Shown here piece by piece: positions 9,928-60,648 of a stretch of 64,000 bases of DNA. Every line of letters starts with the position of its first letter. Position 1 is the first letter of the stretch. The DNA comes from Leisingera sp. NJS204. GTDB lineage: Bacteria > Pseudomonadota > Alphaproteobacteria > Rhodobacterales > Rhodobacteraceae. Under the pieces are notes generated by a model. That model had not been told where the DNA came from and did not search any database. It was given only the letters and a program-made list of their open reading frames with translations. The position numbers were made by a program, and so were the translations under genes. The DNA lies in assembly GCF_004123675.1 (NCBI RefSeq), contig NZ_CP035417.1:3401501-3465500 (forward strand), read 5' to 3'.

Positions 9928-9973
9928 GCGGGAGAGAGGGGCCAGCCCCTCTTGCCCCTCAAGGGGCAATTCA

Positions 9974-10002
9974 CCCCGGGGTATTGAAGACCAGAAAGAA
10001 GC
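9974..10002 (+). repeat. AACCAGAAAGAAGC-type intergenic repeat, copy 1
   Basis: CCCCGGGGTATT followed by GAAG and ACCAGAAAGAAGC lies between the convergent ECF sigma and dapA genes. Related copies are at 29533-29562, 54946-54974 and 60501-60530, all in convergent intergenic regions. Confidence 0.75.
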
Positions 10003-10059
10003 AAACAGGACGGCGCTCCATCGGAGGCCGCCCTTGATTTTGTGACAGTGACCCGAGGC

Positions 10060-10938
10060 TTACAGCAGGCCGGCATGCCCCATGGCAGCGTCGATGGCGG
10101 CCTTGGTGCTATCTTCCAGCGTAGTCAGCGGCGAACGGACCTCTTCGCTGCACATGCCGAGTTTCGACAGGCCGTATTTGGCACCAACCAGGCCCGGCTC
10201 GATGAAGATCGCTTCATGCAGCGGCATCAGCTTGTCCTGATAGGCCAGCGCCGATGTGTAATCGCCTGCGAGGGTCGCGGCCTGGAATTCGGCGCAAAGT
10301 TTCGGCGCCACATTGGCGGTGACCGAAATGCACCCCACCCCGCCATGGGCGTTGAAGCCCAGCGCGGTGGCGTCTTCGCCGGACAGCTGCACAAATTCCG
10401 CACCGCAGGAGGCGCGCTGCTGGCTGACACGGGCGAGATCGCCGGTGGCATCCTTCACACCCGCAATGCGCGGCAGCTTGGCCAGCTCGCCCATAGTGGC
10501 CGGGCTCATGTCGACGATTGAACGGCCCGGGATGTTGTAGATGATGATCGGCAGATCCGCGCAGTCATGGGCTGCGGTAAAATGCTGCACCATCCCGCGC
10601 TGGGTCGGCTTGTTGTAATAGGGGGTCACAACCAGCGCCGCATCGGCGCCGGCCTTTTTGGCAAACTCGACGAATCGAATCATCTCGACGGTGTTATTGG
10701 AGCCGGCACCGGCAATCACCGGCACCCGGCCTGCTGCCGCCTTGACCGTTTCCGCGATGACCAGCTCGTGCTCGTCATGGGTCAGCGTCGGGCTTTCGCC
10801 GGTGGTGCCGACGGGCACAAGACCAGTGGAGCCTTCGGCAATCTGCCATTCCACCAAGCGTTTGAGCGCATCCAGATCCAGCTCGCCGTTCGAAAACGGG
10901 GTGACGAGTGCTGGCATAGAGCCTTTGAACATGGGCAC
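10060..10938 (-). CDS. dapA: 4-hydroxy-tetrahydrodipicolinate synthase
   Basis: Condenses pyruvate with aspartate semialdehyde in the diaminopimelate/lysine pathway, in the cytoplasm. The 292-aa TIM barrel shows GTTGES (44-49), Tyr134 in YNIPGRS and the Schiff-base Lys162 in GVKDATGD, all expected for DapA. It stands alone on the minus strand, convergent with the ECF sigma gene and divergent from the lytic transglycosylase. Other members of the family (NanA, HpaI-like) are less likely because the DapA motifs are complete. Confidence 0.95.
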
Positions 10939-11062
10939 GCTCCCTTTGCTGCAGGTGCAGGCGGCAATCCGCCGCCGTCAAGATATAGAATGCCGGGGAT
11001 TTGAGTTGATACCGGCACGCCAATGAGTAACGTTCAAGCCTCTATCCCCGGACCGCTGGAAA

Positions 11063-13030
11063 ATGCAAGAGATGACACGCATCCTGGCCCTTATTCTGCT
11101 AATCTCGGCGGCCCTTCCCGGGTCGCCTGCCTTGGCGCGCGGCCTTGGCTCCGCCCTGGATCTGATGCGGGCAGAGAAATGGGATCTGGCCGCCCGCGAA
11201 GCCGGGCAGCGGCACAGCACCACCCGCGATATCATCGAATGGCACCGGCTGCGGGCCGGGCTGGGCTCGGCCCGCGACGTGATGGCGTTTCTGGAGCGGC
11301 GGCAGGATTGGCCTGGTCTCGCCTATCTGCGGCGCCGGAACGAGGATGCGATTGCGGCCGCCGGCCGCAATGCCATTCTGGCCTTTTACGCGGATGAACG
11401 CCCGCAGACCGCCGAAGGCGCGCTGAGCCTGGGCAAGGCGCTGATTGCCGCCGGGCGGCGCGGCGATGGCGAGGCGGAGATCGTTCTGGCCTGGCGCACC
11501 AAGGCAATGGGCAGCGCCATTCAAAAGGCGTACCTGCGGGATTTCTCCAAGCTGCTGAAACCGCATCATGCGGCGCGGCTGGACCGGCTGTTGTGGGAGG
11601 ATCATCTGGTCAGTTCCAAACGGATGCTGCCACTGGTGCCCGAGGGCGAACGCAAGCTGGCGGAGGCACGCATCGCCCTGCAGGAACGCGCGCCCGGAGT
11701 GGATGCCAAAATCGAGGCCGTTCCGGACCGGCTGAAGGGATCGGCAGGCCTTGCCTATGACCGGTTTGCCTGGCGCGACCGCAAGCGGCTGCAGGATGGC
11801 GCCATTCAGATGCTGATGGAGCGCAGCACCAGTGCCGAAAAACTGGGCGAGCCAGCCAAATGGCTGCGCCGCCGCCGCGATCTGGCGCGGCAAGTGATGC
11901 GGGACAAGGATTACGAACGCGCCTATCAGCTGGCCGCCTATCATTTCTCCTCACCCGAGGACGGTTATGGCTACTCGGACTGTGAATGGCTGGCGGGATA
12001 CATCGCCCTGCAAAAACTGCGGGACCCGGAATTGGCCGCGGTGCATTTTCAGCGCTTCCTGGCCTCGGTCGAGACCCCGATTTCGATCGGACGCGGCGGC
12101 TATTGGCTGGGCCGCGCTTATGCGGCGATGGGCCAGCCGGACAAGGCGCATGAGGCCTATGCCAAGGGTGCGGAGTACCAGACGTCATTCTATGGGCTGC
12201 TGGCCGCCGAACAGCTGGGCCGCCCGTTTGATCCGGCGCTGGTGAAACCGGCAGACCTGCCGGACTGGAGCAAGGCCGGTTTTGCCAAATCCTCGGTCAC
12301 CAGGGCCGGGCTCGAACTTCTGAAAGCTGGCGATCTGGCATTGGCCGAGCGTTTTTTCACCCATCTGGTCGAAACGCTGCCGCCGGTGCAGGCGCGCCAG
12401 CTTGGGCAGATGGCAGTGGAGCTGAACCAGCCGCATCTGGCAGTGATGATCTCCAAACGCGCGGCGCGCGGCGGGGTGGAGCTGGAGGGCGCCTACTACC
12501 CGTTGCACCCGGTGGCCAAGCGGCAATTGCCGATGGCCGAGGAAATGACCCTGGCCATCGCCCGCCGCGAAAGCGAGTTCGACTCGGCGGTGATCAGCCA
12601 TGCCGGCGCGCGCGGGCTGATGCAGGTGATGCCTGCCACTGCGAAACTGGTGGCGACCGAGCTGGGCATCCTGGCAGGCCACAAGACCTCCCGCCTGACC
12701 GCCGAATGGGATTACAACGCCAAGCTGGGGGCCAATTACCTGGCTGGGCTGGCCGGCAAATTCCGCGGTAATGTGGTGATGATGGCAGCAGGGTATAATG
12801 CCGGGCCGCACCGGCCCACAGCGTGGATGCAGCGCTATGGCGATCCGCGCGATGGCAGCCCGGATATCGTCGACTGGATCGAGCACATCCCGTTCAACGA
12901 GACCCGCAACTATGTAATGCGGGTAACTGAAAGCCTGCCGGTCTATCGCGCCCGGCTGGGCAAGGCTCCGCTGCCCGTCCCGTTCTCAGAGGAACTGCGC
13001 GGCTCAACCCTTCACGCGTTCGCGCCATAG
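11063..13030 (+). CDS. soluble lytic murein transglycosylase
   Basis: A 655-aa periplasmic enzyme with an N-terminal signal peptide (hydrophobic LALILLISAALPGSPALA), a long alpha-helical superhelical region, and a C-terminal SLT (GH23) domain. The catalytic Glu is in ARRESEFDSAVIS (about residue 505), followed by GARGLMQVMPATA and NYLAGL. It cleaves peptidoglycan to 1,6-anhydromuropeptides, as Slt70 does. The ATG at 11063 and one 9 bases later both keep the signal peptide. The 3' end overlaps the convergent EamA gene by 27 bases. Confidence 0.92.
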   Translation: MQEMTRILALILLISAALPGSPALARGLGSALDLMRAEKWDLAAREAGQRHSTTRDIIEWHRLRAGLGSARDVMAFLERRQDWPGLAYLRRRNEDAIAAAGRNAILAFYADERPQTAEGALSLGKALIAAGRRGDGEAEIVLAWRTKAMGSAIQKAYLRDFSKLLKPHHAARLDRLLWEDHLVSSKRMLPLVPEGERKLAEARIALQERAPGVDAKIEAVPDRLKGSAGLAYDRFAWRDRKRLQDGAIQMLMERSTSAEKLGEPAKWLRRRRDLARQVMRDKDYERAYQLAAYHFSSPEDGYGYSDCEWLAGYIALQKLRDPELAAVHFQRFLASVETPISIGRGGYWLGRAYAAMGQPDKAHEAYAKGAEYQTSFYGLLAAEQLGRPFDPALVKPADLPDWSKAGFAKSSVTRAGLELLKAGDLALAERFFTHLVETLPPVQARQLGQMAVELNQPHLAVMISKRAARGGVELEGAYYPLHPVAKRQLPMAEEMTLAIARRESEFDSAVISHAGARGLMQVMPATAKLVATELGILAGHKTSRLTAEWDYNAKLGANYLAGLAGKFRGNVVMMAAGYNAGPHRPTAWMQRYGDPRDGSPDIVDWIEHIPFNETRNYVMRVTESLPVYRARLGKAPLPVPFSEELRGSTLHAFAP

Positions 13031-13894
13031 GGTGAACAGACCTGCCCCGATGATGATACCGGCGCCGATGGCGACATTGGTGCGGATCACCTCGCCGAAC
13101 ACGGCCATGCCCAGCGCCGCCGCCCAGATCAGGTGGAAATAGGCAAAGGGCTGCACCGCGCTGGCCTCGGCCATCTCGTAGCATTTGATCAGCAGCCAAT
13201 GGCCGGTCACGCCGGACACGCACAGCAGCGCCATCCAGAACCAGTCGGTCTGGCTCATCGGTTCCCAGTACCAGATACCGATGGCGGTCATGAAAACCAT
13301 GCCGGCAACCCCGGTCCAGAAGAAGCTGGTGGCGGTGCTGTCCTTGCGCGCCGCATAGCGGGTGACCAGCCCGTAGACGGCAAACATCAGCGCCGAGATA
13401 AACGGGATGATTGCCGCGGGGTTGAACACCCCCATGCCCGGTTGCAGGATGATCAGCACGCCAATCAACCCGACGCCAATCGCCGCCCAGCGCCGCCAGC
13501 CGACGCTTTCGCCCAGCACCGGCCCGCTGAGGGCCGCCACCAGCAGCGGATAGCAGATGAACACCGCCTGGCTCTCAATCAGGCCAAGCACGGTAAAGCC
13601 ATAAACCGCCACGCAGATTTCACCGACCAGAAAAACACCGCGGAATATCTGCAGCCACAGCTGATCGGTCCGCGCCGCAGCCCGGATGCCGCCCGGCGCC
13701 CGTACTGCCAGGAACATCACAAAGGCGGCAAAAAACCAGTAGCGTACCATCACCACCATGTAGGTATTGTAGGTGCCCGCCAGATGGCGCGAGATACCAT
13801 CCTGCAATGCAAAGACAACCGTCGCGCCAATCATCAGCAGAATGCCCAGCGGCACGTTATTGGTCTGGGCCCGGGCCGGGGCTGCCTGTGTCAT
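13004..13894 (-). CDS. EamA/DMT-superfamily transporter
   Basis: A 296-aa protein with ten predicted membrane helices and the two EamA repeats typical of RhaT/YdcZ-like drug/metabolite exporters; a central GESVGWRRWAAIGVGLIGV block marks the start of the fourth-helix region. It probably exports a small metabolite; the substrate cannot be told. It is co-transcribed with mnmD, whose stop overlaps its start (ATGA). Its 3' end overlaps the convergent transglycosylase gene. Confidence 0.88.
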   Translation of the reverse strand: MTQAAPARAQTNNVPLGILLMIGATVVFALQDGISRHLAGTYNTYMVVMVRYWFFAAFVMFLAVRAPGGIRAAARTDQLWLQIFRGVFLVGEICVAVYGFTVLGLIESQAVFICYPLLVAALSGPVLGESVGWRRWAAIGVGLIGVLIILQPGMGVFNPAAIIPFISALMFAVYGLVTRYAARKDSTATSFFWTGVAGMVFMTAIGIWYWEPMSQTDWFWMALLCVSGVTGHWLLIKCYEMAEASAVQPFAYFHLIWAAALGMAVFGEVIRTNVAIGAGIIIGAGLFTLWRERVKG

Positions 13895-14559
13895 GGCTTC
13901 ACTGCCTTTGTCATATGCCGCTTGCGCCCGTAACCGGGGATGCGGGTCACCTCAAATCCTGCGGCCTCCAGCCCGCGGCGCACAAAACCCGCCGCCGTGT
14001 AGGTCGCCGCCGAGCCGCCCGGCACGGTATGCGCCGCAACCTCGCCCATCAGTGCCTCTTCCCACAATTCCGGGTTCTTGGCCGGAGAGAACCCGTCCAG
14101 AAACCAGGCATCCGCCTGCCCTGTCCACTCCGCCAGCGACACGCGCGCGTCGCCGGCAATCACCTCCAGCTGCAGGCTGCCCAGATCACAGGTGCCAGTG
14201 CCTTGCCATTTCTCCAGAAACCGCGCGGCCCAGGGGGCAACCGCGGGGAAGGCCTCCAGCGCTTTGGCCATGTCGGCGGGCGCCATCGGGAAAGCCTCGA
14301 AACTGGTGAAGTGCAATGGCCCTGCCTGCCCTGCCGCCTCCCAGGCGCGCCAGACGGCCAGCATGTTCAAGCCGGTTCCGAACCCCAGTTCGGCAATGCG
14401 GAATCCGGGCGCAAAGCGCGCAGGCAGGTCGTTGCCCGCCAGAAACACATGCTCGGTTTCCGCCAGCCCGTCCTGAAGCGAGAAATAGGGATCATCGAAC
14501 TGGTCCGACACCGGCACGGTGCCATCGCGCCAGCTGAGGCGGGCCTGCTGGTCTGCCAT
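13891..14559 (-). CDS. mnmD: MnmD-like tRNA 5-methylaminomethyl-2-thiouridine methyltransferase
   Basis: A 222-aa SAM-dependent methyltransferase that matches the N-terminal half of bifunctional MnmC. It methylates nm5(s2)U34 to mnm5(s2)U34 in tRNA wobble positions. Visible marks are the N-terminal FDDPYFSLQDGLAETEHVFL block, the SAM motif ELGFGTGLN (about 78-86) and DAWFLDGFSPAKNPELW (about 150). In E. coli the FAD oxidase domain is fused behind this domain. Here a FAD oxidoreductase resembling that domain is encoded separately and divergently, with 58 bases between the two starts. Confidence 0.9.
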   Translation of the reverse strand: MADQQARLSWRDGTVPVSDQFDDPYFSLQDGLAETEHVFLAGNDLPARFAPGFRIAELGFGTGLNMLAVWRAWEAAGQAGPLHFTSFEAFPMAPADMAKALEAFPAVAPWAARFLEKWQGTGTCDLGSLQLEVIAGDARVSLAEWTGQADAWFLDGFSPAKNPELWEEALMGEVAAHTVPGGSAATYTAAGFVRRGLEAAGFEVTRIPGYGRKRHMTKAVKP

Positions 14560-14617
14560 GCTATAATCCCCTAAGTGGTTGTCCGGAACGGCGCGACACT
14601 GGCGAAAGGATCCTCAA

Positions 14618-15658
14618 ATGGCAATGGCAGATGTAACGGTGCGCGGGGCTGGCATATTCGGCCTGTCCATCGCCTGGATCTGCGCCCGGCGCGGCGCGCA
14701 TGTGCAGATCGCGGACCCGTTCGGAGCAGGCGCCGGTTCCAGCGGTGGTCTTGTCGGTGCGCTGGCACCGCATGTGCCGGAGAACTGGAACGCCAAGAAG
14801 CAGTTTCAGCTGGAAAGCCTGCTGATGGCCGAAGGTTTCTGGGCCGGGGTCGAGGCGGCCGGCGGCGTCTCCGCAGGCTATGGCCGCACCGGGCGGCTGC
14901 AGCCGATCAATGACGCGCGCACGCTGGAGCTTGCCCGTCAGCGCGAAATCACCGCCCGCGAGCTGTGGAAGGACACCGCCGAATGGCGCGTCTGCAAGGC
15001 GGACAGCCTGGGGCCTTGGGTCCCGCCCAGCGCAACGGGCTATGTCATTCACGACACTCTCAGCGCCCGGATGCACCCCCGCCGCGCTTGTGCGGCACTG
15101 GTCTCTGCCCTGGCTGTGATGGGGGTCGAGGTGCAGCCGGAGGCCGCCGATCAGGGCAAGGTGGTCCATGCCAAAGGCTACGCCGGCCTGTTGGAGCTGA
15201 ACGAGGCGTTCGGCAAAACTGTGGGCGGCGGCGTCAAGGGCCAGGCCGCGCTCCTGCGCTTTCACGAGGGCGCGGTGCCGCAGCTTTACGCCGACAGCCT
15301 GCACATCATTCCGCACGCCGACGGCACCCTGGCCATCGGTTCCACCAGCGAGCGTGAATTTGAGGACGGCAAGACGACCGACGCCCAGCTCGACGATATC
15401 GTCGAACGCGCCCGCACCGCGGTGCCGGTGCTGCACGGCGCCGAGGTGATCGAACGCTGGGCCGGCGTGCGCCCCCGCGCCAAGTCCCGCGCCCCGATGC
15501 TGGGTGCCTGGCCCGGCCGCGACCGTCATTTCATCGCCAACGGGGGCTTCAAGATCGGCTTTGGCATGGCCCCCAAAGCGGCCCAAGTGATGGCTGATCT
15601 GCTGCTGGAGGATGCGGACAGCATCCCCGAAGGTTTCCGCGTCGAAAACAATCTTTGA
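14618..15658 (+). CDS. FAD-dependent oxidoreductase, likely the MnmC oxidase half
   Basis: A 346-aa DAO-family flavoprotein. The N-terminus has a Rossmann dinucleotide motif GAGIFGLSIAW, and the C-terminal RWAGVRPRAKSRAPMLG and NGGFKIGFG blocks are typical of DAO enzymes including the MnmC C-terminal domain. Facing mnmD head-to-head, it probably oxidises cmnm5U34 to nm5U34 before methylation by MnmD; this is inference from context. The ATG at 14618 has a GAAAGGA ribosome-binding site 7 bases upstream; a TTG at 14579 in the same frame lacks one. A general amino-acid oxidase is the alternative. Confidence 0.78.
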   Translation: MAMADVTVRGAGIFGLSIAWICARRGAHVQIADPFGAGAGSSGGLVGALAPHVPENWNAKKQFQLESLLMAEGFWAGVEAAGGVSAGYGRTGRLQPINDARTLELARQREITARELWKDTAEWRVCKADSLGPWVPPSATGYVIHDTLSARMHPRRACAALVSALAVMGVEVQPEAADQGKVVHAKGYAGLLELNEAFGKTVGGGVKGQAALLRFHEGAVPQLYADSLHIIPHADGTLAIGSTSEREFEDGKTTDAQLDDIVERARTAVPVLHGAEVIERWAGVRPRAKSRAPMLGAWPGRDRHFIANGGFKIGFGMAPKAAQVMADLLLEDADSIPEGFRVENNL

Positions 15659-15669
15659 CCTGCGCGCGC

Positions 15670-15881
15670 CTCCTGCCCTTTGGCGGGTCAAGGGCGGCGC
15701 AGCCGTCGCGCGGCACGCGCGGTTCACCCTTGAGGCGTCAACGGGCTGTTCACAATTGAATTGGCGCCTTGAGGGGCAGCATTGCCCGTCAAGCGCTTCT
15801 CAGCAATATTCCCTGCGCTGCGCAGCAGCGCCACGCCCAAGCCGCTAATCTGCCCGGCAAGGGCAGCTTGGGGCGCGGGAG
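15670..15881. repeat. composite hairpin element, copy F
   Basis: This convergent intergenic region is bounded by CTCCTGCCC (15670-15678) and GCGCGGGAG (15873-15881), degenerate forms of the arms seen in copies A-C. It contains imperfect inverted repeats such as CTTGAGGCG...CGCCTTGAG. It holds no gene. Confidence 0.5.
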
Positions 15882-15890
15882 CCTCCCGTT

Positions 15891-16712
15891 TCAGCCTCTG
15901 GGCACTGCGACTGCGCTCATGCATTGCCGCCCGTCCGGGCCGCGCACCCACAGGTCCTGGCCATTGCAGCACAGGCTGGCGGTCTCGAAATGCATCAGCG
16001 GTGAAGACGCCCGGAAGGAAAACTCCGCCAGCGGTCCCATCAGTTCTTCCGCCAGCAGCATCAGATGCTGCGCCAGCAGCGGGCCGTGAACAACCAGCCC
16101 CGCGTAGCCCTCTGTTTCACGGGCATATTCCAGGTCATAGTGGATCCTGTGCCCATTGAAAGTCAGCGCAGAATACCGGAACAGCAGGGTCGAGTTGAAC
16201 GAGATCTGCCGCACCTCTGTCTCGTCGGTGCGGGCTGTCGGCGGCACCGGTTTGGCGGCCGCAGGATCCGGGTCTTCGCGGTAGACCAGATCATGCCATT
16301 CCGTCAGGCACAGCGCCCCCTGCTGGCGGATCTCATGACGCAATGTGACCAGCCCCAACGGCCCGGTGCGGCCCGTTTTTTTCTCAGCTCTTTCCAGCAC
16401 GGACGTTTTTTCTGCCGCAATCCCGGCCCGCAAGGACGCCGCGAAGCGCAGCCGCCCGCCGGCCCACATCCGCCGCGGCAGGCCCATGTCCGGGATCAGA
16501 CCAGCGCCGCCCACCTTAGGGTGGCCATCGCGGCCCAGATCCGCGGGCGGCAGCGGTTTCCAGAAGTAGAGCTGATGAAAAAACGGCGGCAGCACACTGC
16601 CCGCCGAAATGTCCATACGCCGCCCCAGCGCCGCCTGAAAGGCAGCCGCCCGGGCCGGGTCTATCATGTCCATAGAATGCTGCACGGGAGTGAAGGCCAT
16701 ATCACGTTTCAT
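15891..16712 (-). CDS. MaoC/FAS1-like hotdog-fold acyl-CoA dehydratase (mesaconyl-C4-CoA hydratase type)
   Basis: A 273-aa double-hotdog hydratase. The N-terminal half looks like a FAS1-like dehydratase domain; the C-terminal half has FRYSALTFNGHRIHYD and YAGLVVHGPLLAQHL, the MaoC active-site region with Asn/His followed by the HGP block. Relatives include mesaconyl-C4-CoA hydratase and itaconyl-CoA hydratase. The substrate is probably a short dicarboxylic acyl-CoA (inference). It lies 36 bases downstream of the FMN reductase start region on the same strand, with no overlap. An internal ATG four codons in is an alternative start. Confidence 0.8.
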   Translation of the reverse strand: MKRDMAFTPVQHSMDMIDPARAAAFQAALGRRMDISAGSVLPPFFHQLYFWKPLPPADLGRDGHPKVGGAGLIPDMGLPRRMWAGGRLRFAASLRAGIAAEKTSVLERAEKKTGRTGPLGLVTLRHEIRQQGALCLTEWHDLVYREDPDPAAAKPVPPTARTDETEVRQISFNSTLLFRYSALTFNGHRIHYDLEYARETEGYAGLVVHGPLLAQHLMLLAEELMGPLAEFSFRASSPLMHFETASLCCNGQDLWVRGPDGRQCMSAVAVPRG

Positions 16713-16748
16713 GCCGTCACCTTAACCCCGCGCTGCGGCAAGGCAAGC

Positions 16749-17291: not shown

Positions 17292-17412
17292 AGGAGTACC
17301 TCTTTGTTCGCGTCTCTGTTGCGGCCATCATGCAGGAGGCAGGCCCCGCGAAGAAACAGCTTTCACCGCGCAGGCCATGTGCAGCGTTACGTAAGCCGGT
17401 GCCCCTGAGACG

Positions 17413-20091: not shown

Positions 20092-20372
20092 CGGCCCAAC
20101 CTGTTCTGACTTATGGACCAACTTACTACGCCTGCTCCGGCCGTTCGACCCGGAACTTGCGAAATCCCCTGCCCCGCGCACTCGCTTGGCAAAGCGGGAC
20201 CGGAGCGGCAATCACAGAAGTGCCGGGCCGGACCGGAAAAATTCTGTAAAATCCGCTGCCGCAAACGCAGCATTAAAAGCTGCCCGCCTGCTCTCTTACA
20301 TGCCGCCGCAAACTGTCCCGGCACCGCAATTTCAATTGCTCTTTAAGGTCTGACCTGTACATAAGCGCTGCC

Positions 20373-22070: not shown

Positions 22071-22082
22071 ATTCAGCGGCGT

Positions 22083-22169
22083 TCTCCCGCCCGTCGAACC
22101 AGCACCTGACGGTGCAGTTTCTCCCGTTGGGGGTGGCGCAGAGCGGCTTTGCCGCGCTGCGCCACCCCC
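22083..22169. repeat. composite hairpin element, copy D
   Basis: In the convergent gap between adenosine kinase and marR, a CTCCCGCCC arm is followed by CTCCCGTTGG. A 19-bp hairpin then follows (22129-22147 with 22151-22169, loop TTT, one A/G mismatch) built on GGGGGTGGCGCAG / CTGCGCCACCCCC. It shares the arm and GTTGGG-hairpin plan of copies A-C, but the right outer arm is not evident. Confidence 0.6.
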
Positions 22170-22252
22170 GCCCCGCCGTCCGCAGGACGCAAGGGCGCCA
22201 GCCCGCGCAGCCCTCTTACTTCAGCGCATTTGGACTTTTTGAACTCTTGGCG

Positions 22253-23695: not shown

Positions 23696-24295
23696 TCACC
23701 GCGGCATTGCGGGCTCGCACGCCTTGCCGCGGTGGCAATCCAGAACCTGCCGCCGCACCTCTGACGTATCGGCAAACACAAACCCGCCGCAGGCACCCGC
23801 CCGGATCACCAGCTCCTGCCCGCGTTGTTCGGCAAAGAACACCTGCTCCGCGCCCGAGGCCATGCCGCCGCACCAGGGGCCGAGGCATTCCACCTCAAGC
23901 ACTGCCTGCGCGTTGACCCGTTTAGAGAAATACTTGCCGTCCAGCATCTTGCCTGACAGCTGCGCCGGGATGCGGGTCAGCGGCGGCGTGTCATTCGGGT
24001 TGTCAGCATGGGATTGCGGCAGCAGATTTTCGTCGAACCGCAATTCCCCCGCGATGACATTGTAGACGCTGTCCGATTTTGCGGCCTGCAGATAGGCGTC
24101 CGCAGGTCCCCAAGGAAGGCAGCTGAGGGCGGCAGCAGAATTGGCAAATATTGTCACAACCATTGCCGCGATAAGAACGCTTAGGGCAGCGCCTGACCTT
24201 GGCGAGGTGCAAAGCGCCGTCCCGCGGGGAAGGTCAGGCGCTGCCCGGCCTTTCGGCCAGGCTGAACAGCTTAGGAGAGGCCGGCGCAATCCCAT
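23696..24295 (-). CDS. secreted cysteine-rich hypothetical protein
   Basis: I do not recognise a family. The protein has a hydrophobic segment (ALSVLIAAMVVTIFANSAAALS) and then a soluble part with Cys pairs (ALSCLPW, VECLGPWCGG, GACGG, LDCHRGKACE), as for an exported disulfide-containing protein. The start is uncertain. The ATG at 24295 lies 1 base after the nudH stop and suits coupling, giving 199 aa with a long n-region. The ATG at 24163 would cut the hydrophobic core. A 17-bp inverted repeat lies within the first 40 codons of the long version. Confidence 0.6.
   Translation of the reverse strand: MGLRRPLLSCSAWPKGRAAPDLPRGTALCTSPRSGAALSVLIAAMVVTIFANSAAALSCLPWGPADAYLQAAKSDSVYNVIAGELRFDENLLPQSHADNPNDTPPLTRIPAQLSGKMLDGKYFSKRVNAQAVLEVECLGPWCGGMASGAEQVFFAEQRGQELVIRAGACGGFVFADTSEVRRQVLDCHRGKACEPAMPR
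24184..24246. repeat. 17-bp perfect inverted repeat near a gene start
   Basis: GGGCAGCGCCTGACCTT (24184-24200) and its exact complement (24230-24246) are separated by 29 bases. The repeat lies just downstream of nudH (minus strand) and within the 5' part of the following reading frame. Confidence 0.8.
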
Positions 24296-24296
24296 C

Positions 24297-26956: not shown

Positions 26957-27105
26957 GCTCCCGCCTGCCGCTCCAGGTCCTGACGGACCCGGCCTGCAGT
27001 TGGGCCCGGCCGCGCCTGCGGCGCGGCAGATGGCAGCGCGCAAAGGCGCGCTGCCACGCCCAACGGGCGCAGAGCATGTTTCATGCTCCTAAGCCGGGCG
27101 GGAGC
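26957..27105. repeat. composite hairpin element, copy A
   Basis: Outer arms GCTCCCGCC (26957-26965) and GGCGGGAGC (27097-27105) enclose an inner GTTGGGC (26999-27005) / GCCCAAC (27058-27064) pair and several short hairpins such as GCAGCGCGC/GCGCGCTGC. It fills the convergent gap between the FadH-like gene and the ABM gene. Confidence 0.8.
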
Positions 27106-27199
27106 CGCCACCCGGCGCGCTGTCTTATTCCGCAGCCGCCACAAGCTGCCTCTCGTCCGGGTTCCCCCGGAACGGGCATCTGTTGTAATTCAGTCCCGG

Positions 27200-29515: not shown

Positions 29516-29532
29516 AGCCGCAGCCCGCTGCT

Positions 29533-29562
29533 GCTTCTTTCTGGTTGAAAATACCCCGGGGG
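29533..29562 (-). repeat. AACCAGAAAGAAGC-type intergenic repeat, copy 2
   Basis: Read on the minus strand: CCCCCGGGGTATT, TTC, then AACCAGAAAGAAGC. It lies in the convergent gap before map and is followed by a GGGGGCCGGCCCCC palindrome. Confidence 0.78.
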
Positions 29563-29596
29563 TGCGGGGGCCGGCCCCCGCCGCCGCCCTGACAGC

Positions 29597-35163: not shown

Positions 35164-35191
35164 GGCGCTGCAAAAGATGCGCTCCGGAAAC

Positions 35192-35320
35192 CTCCCGCCC
35201 CCGCAGGTGCCTTGGCTTTGCCAAGACCCCTTGGCGGCGTTGGGCCTGGCTCGGCGCTGTGCGCCGAGCCAGGCCCAACGGGCGCGGGTCAATCTGTGAT
35301 TGATCCGGGACGGGCGGGAG
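35192..35320. repeat. composite hairpin element, copy B
   Basis: Outer arms CTCCCGCCC (35192-35200) and GGGCGGGAG (35312-35320) enclose a perfect 19-bp hairpin, 35239-35257 with 35261-35279 (loop TGT), beginning GTTGGGCCTGG and ending CCAGGCCCAAC. It lies in the convergent gap between the OmpA and LysR genes. Confidence 0.88.
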
Positions 35321-35362
35321 CCTTCCGGCTGTGTTTTTCGCGGACGGCAGAATGTCGACCCC

Positions 35363-35390
35363 AAAAAGCCCCCGCATTCGGTGCGGGGGC
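35363..35390 (-). terminator. terminator of the LysR gene
   Basis: Read on the minus strand, a 9-bp stem GCCCCCGCA / TGCGGGGGC (35382-35390 with 35368-35376), loop of 5, runs into a T stretch at 35363-35367. Confidence 0.85.
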
Positions 35391-38979: not shown

Positions 38980-39049
38980 CCCCTGTTCCGGCTGCGGCTG
39001 CCTGCCCCGGCGGCCGCAGGGCAACCCCTTAATAAACGGTGAAAAATAA

Positions 39050-39111
39050 GGTCAGCATGCCTGCCGGAATGTTTCGCGCGCGAAACATTTGGACACAATT
39101 GCTGACCTTTT
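39050..39111. repeat. nested cruciform in a convergent gap
   Basis: A 10-bp outer stem AAGGTCAGCA (39050-39059) / TGCTGACCTT (39102-39111) encloses, after 10 bases on each side, a perfect 22-bp palindrome (39070-39091) with core TTTCGCGCGCGAAA. The outer stem has A/T runs on both sides (A-rich left, T-rich right), so it could end transcription in both directions. It lies between the convergent peroxiredoxin and pterin dehydratase genes. Confidence 0.85.
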
Positions 39112-46622: not shown

Positions 46623-46651
46623 AAAGGGCTCCCTTCGGGGAGCCTTTTCTT
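46623..46651 (+). terminator. rho-independent terminator of mlaA-mlaC
   Basis: GGCTCCC (46627-46633), loop TTCG, GGGAGCC (46638-46644), then TTTTCTT (46645-46651); the A run at 46623-46625 extends the stem. Confidence 0.9.
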
Positions 46652-46693: not shown

Positions 46694-46842
46694 CTCCCGC
46701 CCGTCGCTGCAGCATCCAGGATGCTGCGCTCCCGTTGGGCCTGGCGTCCTGCCCGGCGGGCAGGACGTGCGCCGCACCGTCAGGTGCGGCGCCGGACCCA
46801 ACTGGCGGAGGCCCCCCTCAGGGGGCCTGCACCGGGCGGGAG
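46694..46842. repeat. composite hairpin element, copy C
   Basis: Outer arms CTCCCGCCC (46694-46702) and GGGCGGGAG (46834-46842) enclose four hairpins: GCAGCATC/GATGCTGC, CGTCCTGCCC/GGGCAGGACG (46745-46767), GCGCCGCACC/GGTGCGGCGC (46770-46793) and a GGCCCCCC/GGGGGGCC-like stem. It occupies the convergent gap between mlaC and the PBP gene. Confidence 0.85.
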
Positions 46843-46863
46843 CCCCACGTTTGCTGCAATCGG

Positions 46864-51083: not shown

Positions 51084-51150
51084 CCCATTGCACAGCATTG
51101 AAACAAAAGGACGGCGCTTTCATGGAGCGCCGTCTGTGCATTTGCAGCGC

Positions 51151-51197
51151 GCAAAAGTTTTGGAAAACTTTTGCCAAGACTTTTCCAAAAGTCTTGG
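51151..51197. repeat. 47-bp double-palindrome element, copy 2
   Basis: The first palindrome (51151-51174) has 11-bp arms GCAAAAGTTTT / AAAACTTTTGC around GG. The second (51174-51197) has arms CCAAGACTTTT / AAAAGTCTTGG around CC. They share the C at 51174. The architecture is identical to 6701-6747. It lies in the convergent gap between amtB and the aminotransferase gene. Confidence 0.9.
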
Positions 51198-51212
51198 ATT
51201 TGCCGCCGCCAT

Positions 51213-51243
51213 AGAAAAACGCGCCCCGGAAGGAGCGCGTTTC
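51213..51243 (-). terminator. terminator of the sseA-aminotransferase operon
   Basis: Read on the minus strand, a near-perfect stem AAACGCGCTCC / GGGGCGCGTTT (51230-51243 against 51217-51227) has a loop of a few bases and runs into TTTTTC. One C/T difference lies in the stem. Confidence 0.7.
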
Positions 51244-54677: not shown

Positions 54678-55015
54678 CAGGTACAGTTTCAGCGCGGTCT
54701 GCACTGGCGCTGATCTTCGGCAGCGGCGGCGGCACATCCCGCTGGGCCGCGGTCTCTGTCCGGGCTTGATCCAAAAGCGAACCTGCAGGGCAACGCATGT
54801 CTGACTTAACCAGTCAGACACCCAAAGCACCCCCAGAACCCCGGGACCAGCCCCGGCGGCACCGGCCGGCTGCAGGGGATTGTCAGGCAGAATAACACCA
54901 ATGCCATGACACGCATCGGTATCCGCTTGCAGGCGCACAAACCCTGCTTCTTTCTGGTTGGAAATACCCTCGGGTGAATTGGCCGCCAGGCCAAGAGGGC
55001 AGCGCCCTCCCCTGA
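54678..55015. other. 338-base gap between the LRR and smpB genes
   Basis: This convergent gap holds the AACCAGAAAGAAGC repeat (copy 3) and a CTGACTTAACCAGTCAG palindrome region (about 54798-54814). A 36-codon minus-strand frame (about 54806-54916) looks like a tiny lipoprotein-like peptide (MRVMALVLFCLTIPC start); I would not call it a gene. No RNA gene is recognised, and nothing here resembles tmRNA despite the smpB neighbour. Confidence 0.4.
54946..54974 (-). repeat. AACCAGAAAGAAGC-type intergenic repeat, copy 3
   Basis: Read on the minus strand: CCCGAGGGTATTT, CC, then AACCAGAAAGAAGC. It lies in the convergent gap before smpB. Confidence 0.75.
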
Positions 55016-55498
55016 TCAGCGTGCGTCCTTCAACAGCCGCTGCTTCTGGCGGGACCAGTCGCGCTTGGCCTCACTCGCCCGCTTGTCGTGGTTCTTCTTG
55101 CCCTTGGCGATGCCCAGCTTGATCTTGGCGCGGCCCTTGTGGTTGAAGTACAAAACCAGCGGCACCAGGGTCATCCCCTTGCGCTGGGTGGCGTTCCACA
55201 GATCCGACAGTTCTTTGCGCGATACCAGCAGCTTGCGGCGGCGGCGCTCTTCATGCTTGAACAGCTTGGCCTGCTCGTAAGGCGGGATATAGGCGTTCAC
55301 CAGCCACAGCTCGCCGTTCTCCACCGCGGCATAGCTGTCGGCGATGTTGGAACCGCCCCCGCGCAGCGCCTTGACCTCGGACCCCTCCAGCATGATGCCG
55401 CATTCGATATCATCTTCGATCGCGTAATCGTACCGCGCCCGCCGGCTTTCGGCGATCACTTTGTAATTCGGGTCGGATGTCTGCTTCTTATTGGCCAT
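55016..55498 (-). CDS. smpB: SsrA-binding protein SmpB
   Basis: A 160-aa trans-translation factor that binds tmRNA and rescues stalled ribosomes. The OB-fold core reads [67 protein letters not shown]. The basic C-terminus [32 protein letters not shown] is the tail that enters the ribosome. The length and motifs are fully typical. It is alone on the minus strand ahead of an EamA gene. Confidence 0.97.
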
Positions 55499-55543
55499 GG
55501 GAGGCAGATGTAAGGCGGCGCGGCGGCGGGCGCAAGGCGCGCA

Positions 55544-56398
55544 TCACGCCTTGCGGCTGCGCAGCAGCGTGAAAACACCGCTGCCGACAATCACCGCACT
55601 GCCGATCAGGGTCAGCATATCGGGCCGTTCGCCAAAAACCAGCACCCCCAGCACCATGGCAAAGATCAGCCTGGTATAGCGGAACGGCGCAATCACCGAG
55701 ATTTCGCCCGCCCGCATCGCCCCGGACAAAGCGTTATAGGCAATGACGCCGATCACCGTGGCTGCCGTGATTTTCAGCGAATTGCCCAGGCTTGGCCAGA
55801 CCGCCCCGCCCGTCCAGCCCAGCGCGGCCACACCGGCAACCACCAGCATGGCAAAACCAAGGAACCCCAGCTGGTTGTTGCTCATATCTTTAGGCGCCGC
55901 GCGAGTGGCCAGATCACGGCCCGCAAACCCTAGCGTGCCGGCAACCGCAAACAGCGAGGCAGGTTCAAACCCGCTTAGCCCCGGCCGCAGGATCAGCAGC
56001 ACCCCGGCAAACCCCAGCCCGATCGCCAGCCAGCGCCGCCAGCCCACCGTCTCGCCAAAGAACACCACAGCACCTGCAGCCACAACCAAAGGCGTTGCCT
56101 GCAGGATGGCCGAGGCCGAGGACAAAGGCGTCAGCGCAATCGCCAGCGTGTAGCACAGGCGTCCTGCGACCTCTGCCACAGACCGCAGCAGCATCGGGCG
56201 CGTGCCGAAACCCGGGTGCCAGGGGGCGTGACCCTGCGCACGCGCCATCGCGGCAAAGATCACCATGCCGCCCAACCCGAACAGGATCAGAATCTGTCCC
56301 ACAGGAATGTCGCGGGCCGCGGATTTGATGAACATATCCTCCAGCGCAAAAGTGGCCATGGCCAGCACCATCAACAGGCTTCCGCGCAGCGTGTCCAT
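55544..56398 (-). CDS. EamA/DMT-superfamily transporter
   Basis: A 284-aa protein with ten membrane helices in two EamA repeats, starting MDTLRGSLLMVLAMATFALEDMFIKSAA. The second repeat has SAILQATPLVVAAGAVVFFGETVGWRRWLAIGLGFAGVLLILRPG. It is likely a metabolite exporter; the substrate is unknown. It ends 45 bases before the smpB start region on the same strand and lies 82 bases downstream of the XRE gene, so it may be read from the same promoter. Confidence 0.88.
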   Translation of the reverse strand: MDTLRGSLLMVLAMATFALEDMFIKSAARDIPVGQILILFGLGGMVIFAAMARAQGHAPWHPGFGTRPMLLRSVAEVAGRLCYTLAIALTPLSSASAILQATPLVVAAGAVVFFGETVGWRRWLAIGLGFAGVLLILRPGLSGFEPASLFAVAGTLGFAGRDLATRAAPKDMSNNQLGFLGFAMLVVAGVAALGWTGGAVWPSLGNSLKITAATVIGVIAYNALSGAMRAGEISVIAPFRYTRLIFAMVLGVLVFGERPDMLTLIGSAVIVGSGVFTLLRSRKA

Positions 56399-56480
56399 TC
56401 CGGTGCCCTTTCAAATCCAGAAAACTCAATGGCTTGGGCAAGTGGTAGGCCCGCCGCAGACAATGCACAAGTGAAGGATT

Positions 56481-57041
56481 TCAGTCCCGCTGCGTCAGAC
56501 CTGCCTGCCGGTAATGGTGCATGTTGAGAAAAGCCGCGCCGGTCCCGGCGCTGCGGTAGCCATGCGGCTGGTCGGCGGCAAAGCGCAAGCCCTGCCCGGC
56601 CTCCAGCGGCACCCATTCGCCGCCCCGCAGCACCTCCATTGACCCGTGCAGCACAAACACTTCCTCGGTCACACCGGTGTCATGCGGCTGGGACTGGTGG
56701 CTTTGCCCTGGCCGCAGCGTGACCTTAAAGGTCTCGGCCCCCAGCAGCGGATCGAAGGGAAAAACGATTTTCACACCGATGCTGCCGGGAAACTGCACGG
56801 TTTCATAAACACCCGCCGCCTCTCCCACGGGTCGCGTCGCTTCGCCGATCAACGCGGTCAGCGGCAGGTGAAACCCTTTGGCGATCTTCCACAGGGTGGC
56901 AATCGTCGGGCTGGATTCGCCGCGCTCGATCTGCCCCAGCATTGCCTTGCTGACCCCTGTGATCTCCGCCGCTTTGGACAGGCTAAGCCCCGCCTGCGTA
57001 CGGATGTTGCGCAGGTTCAGGGTGATGGTTTCATCGCTCAT
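56481..57041 (-). CDS. XRE-family regulator with C-terminal cupin domain
   Basis: A 186-aa repressor-type protein. The N-terminal Cro/C1 HTH is LRNIRTQAGLSLSKAAEITGVSKAMLGQIERGESSPTIATLWKIAKGFHLPL (about 8-58). A C-terminal cupin has VTEEVFVLHGSMEVLRGGEW and FAADQPHGYRS. The arrangement is common for regulators of amino-acid or small-molecule genes. It is divergent from benE, and a large dyad between them is the probable operator. Confidence 0.93.
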   Translation of the reverse strand: MSDETITLNLRNIRTQAGLSLSKAAEITGVSKAMLGQIERGESSPTIATLWKIAKGFHLPLTALIGEATRPVGEAAGVYETVQFPGSIGVKIVFPFDPLLGAETFKVTLRPGQSHQSQPHDTGVTEEVFVLHGSMEVLRGGEWVPLEAGQGLRFAADQPHGYRSAGTGAAFLNMHHYRQAGLTQRD

Positions 57042-57064
57042 AAGATCCGCCGCTCAAAAAACAC

Positions 57065-57110
57065 TTGTGCGTTATAGCGCACGATGTGTAGTGTGCGCTA
57101 TAACGCACAA
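57065..57110. promoter_or_regulatory. twin dyad operator between the XRE regulator and benE
   Basis: GTGCGTTATAGCGCAC (57067-57082) and GTGCGCTATAACGCAC (57093-57108) are exact reverse complements, and each is itself a near-palindrome GTGCGYTATARCGCAC. With two more bases each side they form an 18-bp inverted repeat with a 10-base spacer. The TATAAC/TATAG core could overlap a -10 element. Confidence 0.88.
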
Positions 57111-57146
57111 CACCCCTAGCCGATCCGGCGCCAGAGGAAAAGCCGC

Positions 57147-58325
57147 ATGCTCAAGGATCTGAAACTCTCGCATCTTGTCTCCGGCGCGGTGGCTGTGCTG
57201 GTGGGCTATACCGGTTCGGTTGCGATCATCTTTCAGGCGATTGAGGCCGTCGGCGCCACCCCGTCCCAGGCGGGCAGCTGGATGCTGGTGCTGGGGCTGG
57301 GCATGGGGATCACCTGCCTGATCCTGTCGCTGATCTACCGGATGCCGATCCTGACAGCCTGGTCCACCCCCGGCGCGGCGCTGCTGGCGGTCAGCCTGAA
57401 CGGCGTGCCGCTGGCCGAGGCGGTCGGCGCTTTCCTGTTATGCGCCGTGCTCTTGACCCTTACCGGCGTCACTGGCTGGTTTGCCGCCCTCTCCCGCCTT
57501 ATCCCGGACAGCCTGGCCAGCGCTATGCTGGCGGGCCTTCTGTTCCAGTTCGGCCTCTCGGCTTTCACGTCGCTGCAAAGTGACACCGCGCTGGTGACGG
57601 TGATGGGTCTCACCTTCCTTGCGGGCCGCAAACTGTTTCCGCGCTACACAATCCCAGCGGTGCTGGCGGCAGGTGTGGCCTGGTGCTCAGGCACCGGAGC
57701 TTTTGGCAGCTTGGAGGCGCTGGACCTCACCCTGGCCCGCCCCGAATTCATAATGCCGGCTTTTTCGCTGCCTGTGCTGATCGGTATCGGCCTGCCCTTG
57801 TACATCGTCACCATGTCCTCGCAGAACATGCCTGGTGTGGTCGCGCTGAAGGCCTGCGGATACGCACCCCCTGTCTCCGCTAGCCTAACCGTCACCGGGC
57901 TGGCCTCGCTGATCCTTGCGCCCTTCGGCGGCTTTGCCTTCAACCTCGCCGCCATCACAGCTGCGATCTGCGCAGGGCCGGAGGCGGATGAGAACCCGGA
58001 CACCCGCTATCTGGCCGGTGTCATGACGGGTCTCGTCTACATTCTGGTGGGTCTGGGCGGCGCCACCGTGATCAGCCTGTTTCTGATCGCACCCAAGGCG
58101 TTGGTGGCCACCGTCGCGGGCCTTGCGCTGCTGTCAACTATCGGCAACAGCCTGTCTGCCGCGCTGTTAGATGCCAAGGGCCGGGAGGCGGCACTGATCA
58201 CCTTTATGACCACGGTGTCCGGTGTCAGCTTCTTTGGAATCGGTGCGCCGTTCTGGGCGCTGGTGCTGGGACTGGCGGTGAATCACTGGCTGAAAAGCCC
58301 CGAACCAGCGCCCGCCCGCGCCTGA
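57147..58325 (+). CDS. benE: BenE-family benzoate/aromatic-acid transporter
   Basis: A 392-aa polytopic membrane protein. It starts [27 protein letters not shown] and has [35 protein letters not shown] and [33 protein letters not shown], all BenE blocks. The family is related to nucleobase-cation and sulfate carriers and moves benzoate by proton symport. No benzoate catabolic genes are adjacent, so the real substrate may differ. Regulated by the divergent XRE/cupin gene (inference). Confidence 0.9.
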
Positions 58326-58458
58326 GAAACAACCCGAGAGACATTTCACCGCTGAAATCCGGCGCCAACTGCGCCAAAATTACCGAACAGCCCCCCGGCA
58401 GGTTGCCTTTATTGCGCAAATCGTGTCCCTGAGGGCAAAGACTAAGGGAAATAGCCTG

Positions 58459-60303
58459 ATGCCAATGTACCGATCCAGAACCTCCACCCATGGCCGCAAC
58501 ATGGCGGGCGCGCGCGGATTGTGGCGCGCCACCGGCATGAAAGACGATGATTTTGGCAAACCGATCATCGCCATCGTCAACTCTTTTACCCAGTTCGTGC
58601 CCGGCCACGTCCATTTGAAGGACCTGGGCCAGATGGTCGCCCGTGAGGTTGAGGCGGCCGGCGGCGTCGCCAAGGAATTCAACACCATCGCGGTGGATGA
58701 CGGTATCGCCATGGGCCATGACGGCATGCTGTATTCACTGCCGTCGCGCGAAGTGATTGCCGACAGCGTCGAATACATGGTCAACGCCCATTGCGCCGAT
58801 GCCATGGTCTGCATCTCCAACTGCGACAAGATCACACCGGGCATGCTGATGGCCGCGATGCGGCTGAACATCCCGGCGATCTTTGTCTCCGGCGGCCCGA
58901 TGGAAGCAGGCAAGATCGACATTGCCGATCTGGACATGAAGAAGATCGACCTGGTCGATGCGATGGTCGCCGCAGCGAATGACAAGTTCACCGATGAGCA
59001 GGTCCAGCACATCGAAGAGAACGCCTGCCCCACCTGCGGGTCGTGCTCGGGCATGTTCACTGCCAACTCGATGAATTGCCTGGCCGAGGCCCTGGGCCTG
59101 GCGCTGCCCGGCAACGGCTCGACCCTGGCGACCCATGCGGACCGCAAGCACCTGTTCCTGGAGGCCGGCCGCAAGATCGTCGATATTACCAAGCGTCACT
59201 ATGTCGGCGAGGAAAAGGGCCTGCTGCCGCGCGAGATTGCCACGTTCAAGGCGTTTGAGAACGCGATGAGCCTGGACATTGCCATGGGCGGCTCCACCAA
59301 CACGGTGCTGCACCTGCTGGCCATCGCCAATGAGGGCGAAGTCGACTTCAACATGTCCCACATGGACCAGCTGAGCCGCAAGGTACCCTGCCTGTGCAAG
59401 GTGGCGCCGAACACAGCCAATGTGCATATGGAAGACGTGCACCGGGCCGGCGGTATCTTCTCGATCCTGGGTGAATTGTCCCGTGCAGGCCTGTTGCATA
59501 ATGATTGCAGCACCGTGCACTCCTCGACCATGGGCGAGGCGATTGCCAAGTGGGACGTCAAGGTTGCCAATAACCCCGAAGCCGAAGAGCTGTTCAAGGC
59601 AGCCCCCGGCGGCGTGCGCACAACGCAAGCCTTCAGCCAGTCGAACCGCTATAAAGAGCTGGACGTGGACCGCGCAGGCGGCGTGATCCGCTCGCAAGAG
59701 CACGCCTTCAGCCAGGACGGTGGCCTTGCGGTGCTGTTCGGCAATATCGCGCTGGACGGCTGCATCGTGAAAACCGCCGGCGTCGATGCCAGCAACCTCA
59801 CCTTCAACGGCTCGGCCTATGTCTGCGAAAGCCAGGATGCGGCGGTGAACGACATCCTGACCGGCAAGGTCAAAGAAGGCGACGTGGTTGTGATCCGCTA
59901 TGAGGGTCCGCGCGGCGGTCCCGGCATGCAGGAAATGCTCTACCCGACCTCCTATTTGAAGTCGAAAGGCCTGGGCAAGAAATGCGCGCTGCTGACCGAC
60001 GGGCGCTTCTCCGGCGGCACCTCGGGCCTGTCGATCGGCCATGTCTCGCCCGAGGCCGCCGAAGGCGGCACCATCGGCCTAGTGCGCCAGGGCGACACCA
60101 TCGAGATCGACATCCCCAACCGCTCGATCCACCTGGCAGTCTCCGACGAAGAGCTGGCGGCACGCCGCGAGGAACAGGACGCCAAAGGCTGGAAACCCGC
60201 CGAGCCGCGCAAGCGCAAGGTTTCCAAGGCGTTGAAGGCCTATGCGCTGCTGGCCACCTCCGCCGCCAAGGGCGCCGTCCGCGCGCTGCCCGACGAGGAT
60301 TGA
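58459..60303 (+). CDS. ilvD: dihydroxy-acid dehydratase
   Basis: A 614-aa iron-sulfur dehydratase that makes 2-keto acids from dihydroxyisovalerate and dihydroxymethylvalerate, the third step of valine/isoleucine biosynthesis. Cluster Cys residues are visible in [12 protein letters not shown] and [16 protein letters not shown]. The C-terminal [23 protein letters not shown] is the substrate loop. The ATG at 58459 with AAGGGA upstream gives the usual [22 protein letters not shown]; a frame from 58423 adds 12 residues. No attenuator leader was recognised in 58326-58458. Confidence 0.97.
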
Positions 60304-60330
60304 AGCCCTTCAGTCACGAAACATTCAACA

Positions 60331-60362
60331 CCCGCCGCAAAAAACGCGGCGGGTTTTCTTTT
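60331..60362 (+). terminator. rho-independent terminator of ilvD
   Basis: CCCGCCGC (60331-60338), loop AAAAAAC, GCGGCGGG (60346-60353), then TTTTCTTTT (60354-60362). Confidence 0.93.
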
Positions 60363-60413
60363 GGCGCCTGTCCCTGAACCGCCTCTCAGCATCATTCCTG
60401 TTTCAGCAAAAAA

Positions 60414-60626
60414 CTCCCGCCCCCGCTACGCCCCGCTAGCTAACGCCAGCGCGCCAAGCGGCGTTGGGCCAAGCGCCGCGCTAGCGCACGGCGTGCCTCC
60501 CGCGGTGAGTATTTGGAACCAGAAAGAAGCTGTGCGGGCTTTTCTGGAGCGCCGCCGCGCCGCGCCAGCGGCGCCCGGCCCAAGGCTTGCCGCTGCATCT
60601 TTGATGCTGCGGCTCAGGCGCGGGAG
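60414..60626. repeat. composite hairpin element, copy E
   Basis: Outer arms CTCCCGCCC (60414-60422) and GCGCGGGAG (60618-60626; one mismatch to the consensus) enclose GTTGGGCC and GGCCCAAG stretches, GCGC-rich short stems and, at 60501-60530, the AACCAGAAAGAAGC repeat. This is the longest copy. Confidence 0.65.
60501..60530 (+). repeat. AACCAGAAAGAAGC-type intergenic repeat, copy 4
   Basis: CGCGGTGAGTATTT, GG, then AACCAGAAAGAAGC. The right half is identical to copies 2 and 3; the left half is more diverged. It is nested in composite element E. Confidence 0.75.
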
Positions 60627-60648
60627 CCCCCTTTTCCTCCCTGCCGCC

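Follow-up and report, generated by a model that had tools for sequence, protein, structure and literature searches.

REP-like hairpin repeats behind stop codons in a Leisingera genome: several unrelated families that may stand in for terminators

Why should genes that end facing each other so often be separated by a repeat? The question arises from a 64,000-nucleotide stretch of the Leisingera sp. NJS204 chromosome (the window, contig C1:3401501-3465500 of a 5.04 Mb genome in 8 contigs), for which a sequence-only reading had listed 11 convergent gene junctions longer than 50 bp, each with a repeat or palindrome, and had proposed elements kept for bidirectional termination or for handling supercoils. 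The follow-up described here points, with middling confidence, to several unrelated hairpin families of one Roseobacter lineage, similar to repetitive extragenic palindromic (REP) elements, which most likely replace the conventional terminator as the hairpin at the 3' end of a gene. A termination role is supported indirectly, by the exclusion of conventional terminators where an element adjoins a stop codon and by the conservation of the copies that orthologous junctions retain.

Genes were called in the window and in the wider sample with a home-made caller, so that some start codons, and hence some ends of codirectional and divergent gaps, are uncertain. Gaps of the window were searched by blastn against the window and a further 1.6 Mb of its chromosome, and a stricter rule called for at least 20 bases common to a gap and at least two other gaps; gaps with at least 10 N were removed (two convergent ones, from 189 to 187). 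Independent gene calling gave 13 convergent ends in the window, with a gap longer than 50 bp at 11, and these are the same 11 junctions that had been listed; two short or overlapping ends were found where four had been counted. All 11 gaps have blastn matches elsewhere (1 to 29 each), compared with 0/13 divergent gaps and 3/16 codirectional gaps (6696 and 24164, which hold intergenic repeats, and 31450, with one match, inside a gene). The stricter rule retains 10/11 convergent, 2/16 codirectional and 0/13 divergent gaps, the gap at 22071-22252 failing because it has a single partner, with an F1 end motif present nonetheless. The elements were counted as five families (F1 to F5) where four types had been described, the gap at 15659-15890 holding F1 with an F5 insert. 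The proposed restriction to convergent gaps, to which 6696 had been conceded as an exception, stood for divergent gaps and broke down at the codirectional gap 24164-24296, which had been overlooked. Likewise, the formula ‘repeat or palindrome’ is sound for the repeat families and too wide for palindromes in general, because an inverted repeat is also present in a divergent gap (57042-57146).

Across the sample, the local regularity becomes an enrichment and no rule. Under the stricter rule, repeats occur in 87/187 convergent, 98/608 codirectional and 10/235 divergent gaps longer than 50 bp, and without the window in 77/176, 96/592 and 10/222, respectively (Fisher p 3e-13 for convergent versus codirectional and 2e-6 for codirectional versus divergent), which makes the 11/11 of the window a local extreme. 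Since an element lengthens its own gap, the comparison was made at element-free length, giving a Mantel-Haenszel odds ratio for convergent over codirectional gaps of 3.91 with the window left out. The equal frequency in codirectional gaps that the sequence-only reading had named as refuting its own proposal was therefore not observed (odds ratio 3.9 at matched length). The 50-bp limit is not general, as 3/43 sampled convergent gaps of 1-50 bp hold a repeat, one 48-bp gap being filled by F3. Convergent rates range from 8/39 to 21/31 by segment, C1:1-400000 being the segment poorer in repeats (8/39 convergent gaps, versus 28/54, 20/52 and 21/31 in the other three sampled segments). In counts by family, with the window included, the 25 F1 end pairs comprise 16 in convergent gaps, 7 in codirectional gaps, none in divergent gaps and 2 not within one gap; the 33 F2 sites comprise 16 in convergent gaps, 12 in codirectional gaps, none in divergent gaps and 5 inside called genes; and the 15 F4 sites (at most 2 mismatches) comprise 8 convergent, 6 codirectional and 1 divergent. 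Outside this genome, a simple F1 pattern was found in 18 of the 149 genomes sampled from the order, representing 13/72 genera.

The elements thus follow stop codons, in both orientations, and rarely precede genes, so that convergent gaps, having two 3' ends and no promoter, are the most enriched. An element adjoining a stop codon would most likely act as the 3'-end hairpin of that gene in place of a conventional terminator, and the near symmetry of the element could allow a single copy to serve both genes. The main rival, which we consider possible and the less probable of the two, is that these are neutral or selfish repeats, similar to REP elements or to miniature inverted-repeat transposable elements (MITEs), inserted where they do no harm, convergent gaps being safest because they lack a promoter or ribosome site. 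Near absence from divergent gaps (10/222) agrees with such insertion, whereas the convergent rate of 0.44 exceeds the 0.30 expected from applying the codirectional rate to each 3' end, a rate taken from a set that includes intra-operon gaps. Supercoil-handling sites between converging polymerases, bound by gyrase or topoisomerase as for the bacterial interspersed mosaic elements (BIMEs) of E. coli, would also be enriched between convergent genes, and the same argument is printed for REP elements, whose place between convergent genes is linked to supercoiling and to safety from regulatory signals in the portion of PMC1525189 available. We regard such sites as very improbable here, given that no motif common to the families was noticed beyond the hairpins and that 99/176 convergent gaps have no repeat.

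Conventional terminators were called with a simple home-made rule (which also scores 8/171 divergent gaps) in gaps of up to 1500 nt. Element-free terminators were observed at 8/110 convergent ends with an element at most 40 nt from the stop codon, at 16/62 with an element farther away and at 83/200 with no element (Fisher 3e-10 for the deficit at near-element ends versus the rest). Matching for free space gives a convergent odds ratio of 0.30, with as few terminators or fewer in 3/2000 permutations. The corresponding codirectional counts are 4/56, 15/42 and 136/510. Plain insertion in front of an existing terminator would have left the terminator beyond the element, and a displaced terminator was found at only 7/110 near convergent ends; this scenario is thus not favoured, and terminators that are missing and not displaced speak against neutral insertion as well.

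Conservation was followed in orthologous gaps from seven genus members (G017, G007, G003, G020, G005, G018 and G008). A copy was scored as kept with identity >0.6 and gaps of at most about 25 %; this scoring, the divergence comparison and the pair-change tests covered gaps of positive length (without 6696 in G018 and G008 and 26944 in G003) that were no more than 1.8 times the length in our genome (13 element-gap comparisons set aside), and the divergence comparison covered copies not scored as lost or degraded. In 42/59 comparisons the element was kept. Retained copies are more identical than both fourfold sites and the rest of the gap in 7/7 relatives, with values (element/fourfold sites/rest of gap) of 0.941/0.880/0.900 in G017, 0.872/0.800/0.634 in G003, 0.896/0.768/0.668 in G007, 0.810/0.695/0.586 in G020, 0.821/0.681/0.598 in G005, 0.757/0.643/0.542 in G008 and 0.712/0.632/0.552 in G018; such slow evolution is not expected of neutral repeats. 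Divergent gaps are even more conserved than the retained elements in most relatives. Across species, gap length varies strongly at most convergent junctions of the window (29516-29596 excepted) and hardly at all at most divergent ones (20092-20372 excepted), which, together with frequent loss, fits insertion of neutral repeats. The proposal that the elements are kept at convergent junctions is accordingly borne out for retained copies and not for the junctions as such, of which 99/176 are without an element and whose orthologues lose them. Within orthologous copies, paired double changes number 33, versus 18.1 in a shuffled null, and structural constraint on these copies is partial.

Several observations weigh against a role as stand-in terminators. 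For codirectional ends, the free-space-matched odds ratio of 0.42 is not significant (207/2000 permutations). Only 24/110 near convergent ends have a terminator-like signal within the element itself, and most elements have no T run, so that the GC-rich hairpin followed by a T run of a canonical intrinsic terminator is found in a minority at most. Convergent ends with a farther element are also terminator-poorer than those with none (16/62 versus 83/200, p 0.035), and adjacency alone does not explain this. Counted per gap, the convergent deficit is weak (38/86 versus 60/100, p 0.04) and disappears once the element-free length exceeds 100, and codirectional gaps have no deficit (25/98 versus 136/510). 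The terminator rule also scores 22/600 random intragenic windows. Among the orthologue comparisons, 17/59 were loss or decay (three gapless junctions not counted), and the identity of kept copies is inflated because being kept itself requires identity >0.6. The compensatory excess (33 versus 18.1) is modest, unpaired double changes also exceed their null (28 versus 19.7), and pair-breaking single changes number 156, versus 192.5 expected. Taking both sides together, the elements probably serve as 3'-end hairpins, and we infer both a function, in transcription termination or in protection of mRNA ends, and a spread by copying.

The features of the window, in window coordinates and with the strand where one was assigned, are as follows.

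6699..6749, no strand: F3 double palindrome in a codirectional gap; 11 matches.
9940..10003, + strand: F2 element, two hairpins then TTCACCCCGGGGTATT..GACCAGAAAGAAGC, sigma/dapA junction; 15 blastn matches, aligned copies.
15660..15884, no strand: F1 carrying an F5 insert, FAD oxidase/hotdog junction; 10 matches, F5 copies aligned.
22084..22205, no strand: F1-type composite hairpin, adenosine kinase/marR junction; 1 partner in the sample.
24183..24262, no strand: separate hairpin repeat family, GGGCAGCGCCTGACC...GGTCAGGCGCTGCCC, codirectional gap 24164-24296; 9 matches at 8 places.
26958..27106, no strand: F1 with paired inverted ends, FadH/ABM junction; 18 matches, end pair found.
29530..29592, - strand: F2, HAD/map junction; 18 matches; identity 100, 90 and 94 % in G017, G007 and G003.
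35191..35322, no strand: F1, OmpA/lysR junction; 29 matches.
35359..35390, - strand: conventional terminator of the lysR-type gene; hairpin and T run, present in G017, G007 and G003.
39048..39110, no strand: F4 with core palindrome TGTTTCGCGCGCGAAACA, peroxiredoxin/phhB junction; 10 matches at 5 places.
46623..46651, + strand: conventional terminator of mlaC.
46694..46844, no strand: F1 with two inner hairpins, mlaC/PBP junction; 16 matches.
51150..51198, no strand: F3 double palindrome, amtB/aminotransferase junction; 8 matches; lost in G007, G005 and G018.
51215..51242, - strand: conventional terminator of the aminotransferase gene.
54946..55008, - strand: F2, LRR/smpB junction; 18 matches.
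60331..60362, + strand: conventional terminator of ilvD.
60413..60627, no strand: F1 with an F2 core inside, ilvD/sulfotransferase junction; 24 matches, end pair.

At several of these junctions one of the two genes already has a conventional terminator. The mlaC, ilvD and lysR-type genes each have one, and the element adjoins the partner gene, which is itself without a terminator; at amtB/aminotransferase, a terminator-like hairpin stands at both genes with F3 between them. Elements and conventional terminators thus tend to share out the gene ends. The window contains no tRNA genes and gave 0 matches to Rfam families at the gathering score.

Individual junctions illustrate both retention and exchange. 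The F1-type element at 22084..22205 was scored as kept in G017, G007, G020, G005, G018 and G008 (identity 0.63-0.98) and is reduced in G003, and the OmpA/lysR element has a compensatory T-A to A-T change in G017. At 6696, F3 is present in our genome, G007, G020 (with quite different stems) and G005, an F2-like element was recognized by eye in G003, and the genes overlap in G018 and G008. Up to four junctions were also compared in named loci (from among L089-L104), the orthologous junction being present in 38, 69, 10 and 42 of 80. The mlaC/PBP F1 element, kept by the scoring rule in 7/7 genus members, is degraded or partly deleted in L091, L092, L094 and L095, and one Pseudophaeobacter (L101) has the terminator only. 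The 24183-24262 repeat is lost or degraded in 4/7 relatives, where the gaps are 55-76 nt; its 9 matches comprise 7 codirectional, 1 convergent and 1 in a called gene, and the family resides mainly in codirectional gaps, the copies seen lying ~45-100 nt after the upstream stop codon. The inverted repeat in the divergent gap 57042-57146 is large, with 18-bp arms (TTGTGCGTTATAGCGCAC ... GTGCGCTATAACGCACAA), and is probably an operator.

The families differ in architecture. F1 is a composite with inverted ends, in the order CTCCCGCC, hairpin, GTTGGGC ... GCCCAAC, hairpin, GGGCGGGAGC, and its inner part, ~15-20, 45 or 76-200 nt long in most pairs, holds further hairpins, F2 or F5. A loose pattern for single end units matches 66 times in convergent gaps, 49 in codirectional gaps, 6 in divergent gaps and 172 inside genes, and 50/121 of the intergenic units pair up into the 25 pairs. 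The outer hairpin varies in sequence over 27 distinct right ends, of which 20/27 form a stem of 5 bp or more, versus 9 % of shuffles, and CGTC stands directly 5' of the hairpin labelled D in 14/27 distinct F1 ends found locally (F1 ends being those scanned). In F2, a conserved GGGTATTTNNNACCAGAAAGAAGC-like tail comes after two hairpins, and the element occurs in both orientations. F3 consists of two abutting hairpins of ~24 nt each; over all 16 copies seen, 93.8 % of cells are paired, versus 78.5 in shuffles, and 46 cells show double changes, versus 15.1 (0/500 shuffles as high in either case), the covariation having the same outcome on 12 copies, with four less regular ones left out. F4, a nested inverted repeat, has a core of 18 bp that is identical in 13/15 of the copies in our genome, and F5 is a repeat of ~150-185 bp found beside or inside F1.

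The paired inverted ends and variable cargo of F1 are in keeping with neutral or selfish spread, as are F1 ends that flank a coding region in four other Leisingera loci. In the amtB/aminotransferase gap of L090, L093, L094 and L095, F1 ends lie ~510 nt apart around an open reading frame (ORF) of 85 aa; L089 has this ORF and a left F1 end, with no close right end, and the gaps of our genome, G017 and G007 (182, 183 and 147 nt) are too short for it. No transposase could be tied to the elements, which argues against selfish spread: Y1 transposase domains occur at three loci of the genome, where an element search gave one weak match (24 bp, E 0.006) near one locus, and manufacture of the families by these three enzymes is unsupported. 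An integron-type attachment site, considered in view of the GTTGGGC/GCCCAAC boxes, was set aside, the box order being reversed relative to the integron pattern.

F4 leads in a different direction. The genome contains 13 exact matches to its core TGTTTCGCGCGCGAAACA, of which 10 are chromosomal and 3 belong to contig C4. The core is common to chromosomal gene-end gaps and the rep-parAB region of this plasmid contig (L258 3347, 7798 and 9309), whose three copies lie around the genes for a replication initiator (Pfam RPA), a ParA-type ATPase and a ParB-like protein. After each of two copies (L258 3347-3498 and 9309-9460) comes a pair of F2 motifs in inverted orientation, which suggests a duplicated composite. 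For F4 only, a role as a putative centromere (parS-like site) of RPA-type plasmid partition, scattered over the chromosome too, and no terminator, appears slightly more likely than not. A ParB at least 84 % identical is encoded in 14/21 Leisingera genomes (one split into two matches), and the F4 core, a palindrome close to parAB as a parS site would be, lies 95-195 bp downstream of parB in 6/6 genomes listed (G000, G001, G002, G003, G005 and G006) of these 14. In PLSDB, 81 plasmid records match the core, 58 from Phaeobacter and 12 from Leisingera. Two records were opened: in the Leisingera M527 plasmid, the core lies 169 bp downstream of the ParB gene in a RepA-ParA-ParB block, whereas in the Phaeobacter P128 plasmid the best-matching copy lies between two sugar genes, ~1.5 kb from parB. 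Also at odds with a centromere, the C4 ParB-like protein has no Pfam match and matches ParB/RepB below the NCBIfam cut-offs, and the palindrome, found with at most 1 mismatch in 21/21 Leisingera genomes, persists in 7/7 of those without a parB >44 % identical; two genomes without this ParB (G007 and G017) have 13 and 10 exact cores, every one of them on the contig of 4.1 or 4.3 Mb, respectively.

Across the order, 21/149 genomes contain the exact core. The wider proposition, that F4 is the centromere of a widespread Roseobacter RPA-type plasmid with some ten chromosomal copies between gene ends even where that ParB is absent, seems doubtful on present sequence comparisons; the RPA-type plasmids here are presumably the RepA-I ‘biofilm’ plasmids. 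A depletion of chromosomal F4 sites near the origin (taken as the parS pair) was suggested by our genome, with G004 and G017 not contradicting it, and was rejected on finding a site within ~0.25 Mb of the pair in G003, G005 and G007. F4 resembles the parS of repABC plasmids, as far as the accessible part of PMC9040568 describes it, in being a perfect palindrome with few copies adjoining parB, and differs in its replicon type and in its ten or so additional chromosomal copies, which lie in a longer nested repeat and mostly in gene-end gaps. No printed account of the F4 site was found in the accessible portions of the open-licence literature, including PMC3910702 and PMC9040568. If a ParB-like protein binds F4, the chromosome would hold scattered plasmid-type centromeres, mainly behind genes, which could tether plasmids to the chromosome or organize the chromosome. 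The F4 repeat, which would connect chromosomal gene ends with plasmid partition, is a lead distinct from the terminator question.

Among known systems, the inverted repeats of uptake sequences in Neisseria and Haemophilus are used as terminators, and the families described here resemble them in being repeated sequences that form inverted pairs at gene ends. Intrinsic and hairpin-cluster terminators, as described in the available part of PMC8355165, likewise place hairpins after the stop codon, and mutual exclusion with conventional terminators suggests that our elements occupy the same place in the gene; in contrast to those terminators, they are repeated families and not unique sequences, and mostly lack a T run. 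As far as the descriptions accessible to us go, MITEs and the enterobacterial RU-type elements share inverted ends, the size of F1 and, in most copies, a lack of coding capacity. Terminal inverted repeats are found in F1 only, and its ends, unlike theirs, are structured hairpins around an inner part that can carry other repeats or, in further loci of the genus, an ORF; unlike MITEs, F1 had no autonomous partner identified in the element search at the three Y1-transposase loci.

The closest likeness is to REP elements and BIMEs and to the GTAG- and CGTC-tagged super-families, which, in the accessible parts of PMC3733652 and PMC1525189, are short palindromic intergenic repeats with many copies and several families per genome. 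REP elements are reported mainly from gaps that follow coding regions and separate convergent or unidirectional genes (PMC3733652, as far as available), and our families share this placement, being many-copy intergenic palindromic repeats mostly downstream of genes, between convergent and unidirectional ones, and rare in divergent gaps. They differ from the REP elements and BIMEs so described in being longer (~50-225 bp here) and composite, with paired inverted ends in F1, in having the end tag only in part, and in showing no link to a REP-associated transposase at the three Y1 loci. Placement of this kind is thus already known for REP-like repeats in other bacteria, while the families F1 to F5 and their terminator stand-in pattern look new, no printed account of the families or of a measured terminator exclusion having been found in the accessible portions of open-licence papers. 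The long-standing question about REP-like repeats, whether they are debris in harmless places or functional gene ends, becomes countable in this lineage, through the mutual exclusion of elements and conventional terminators at a given stop codon and the conservation of retained copies.

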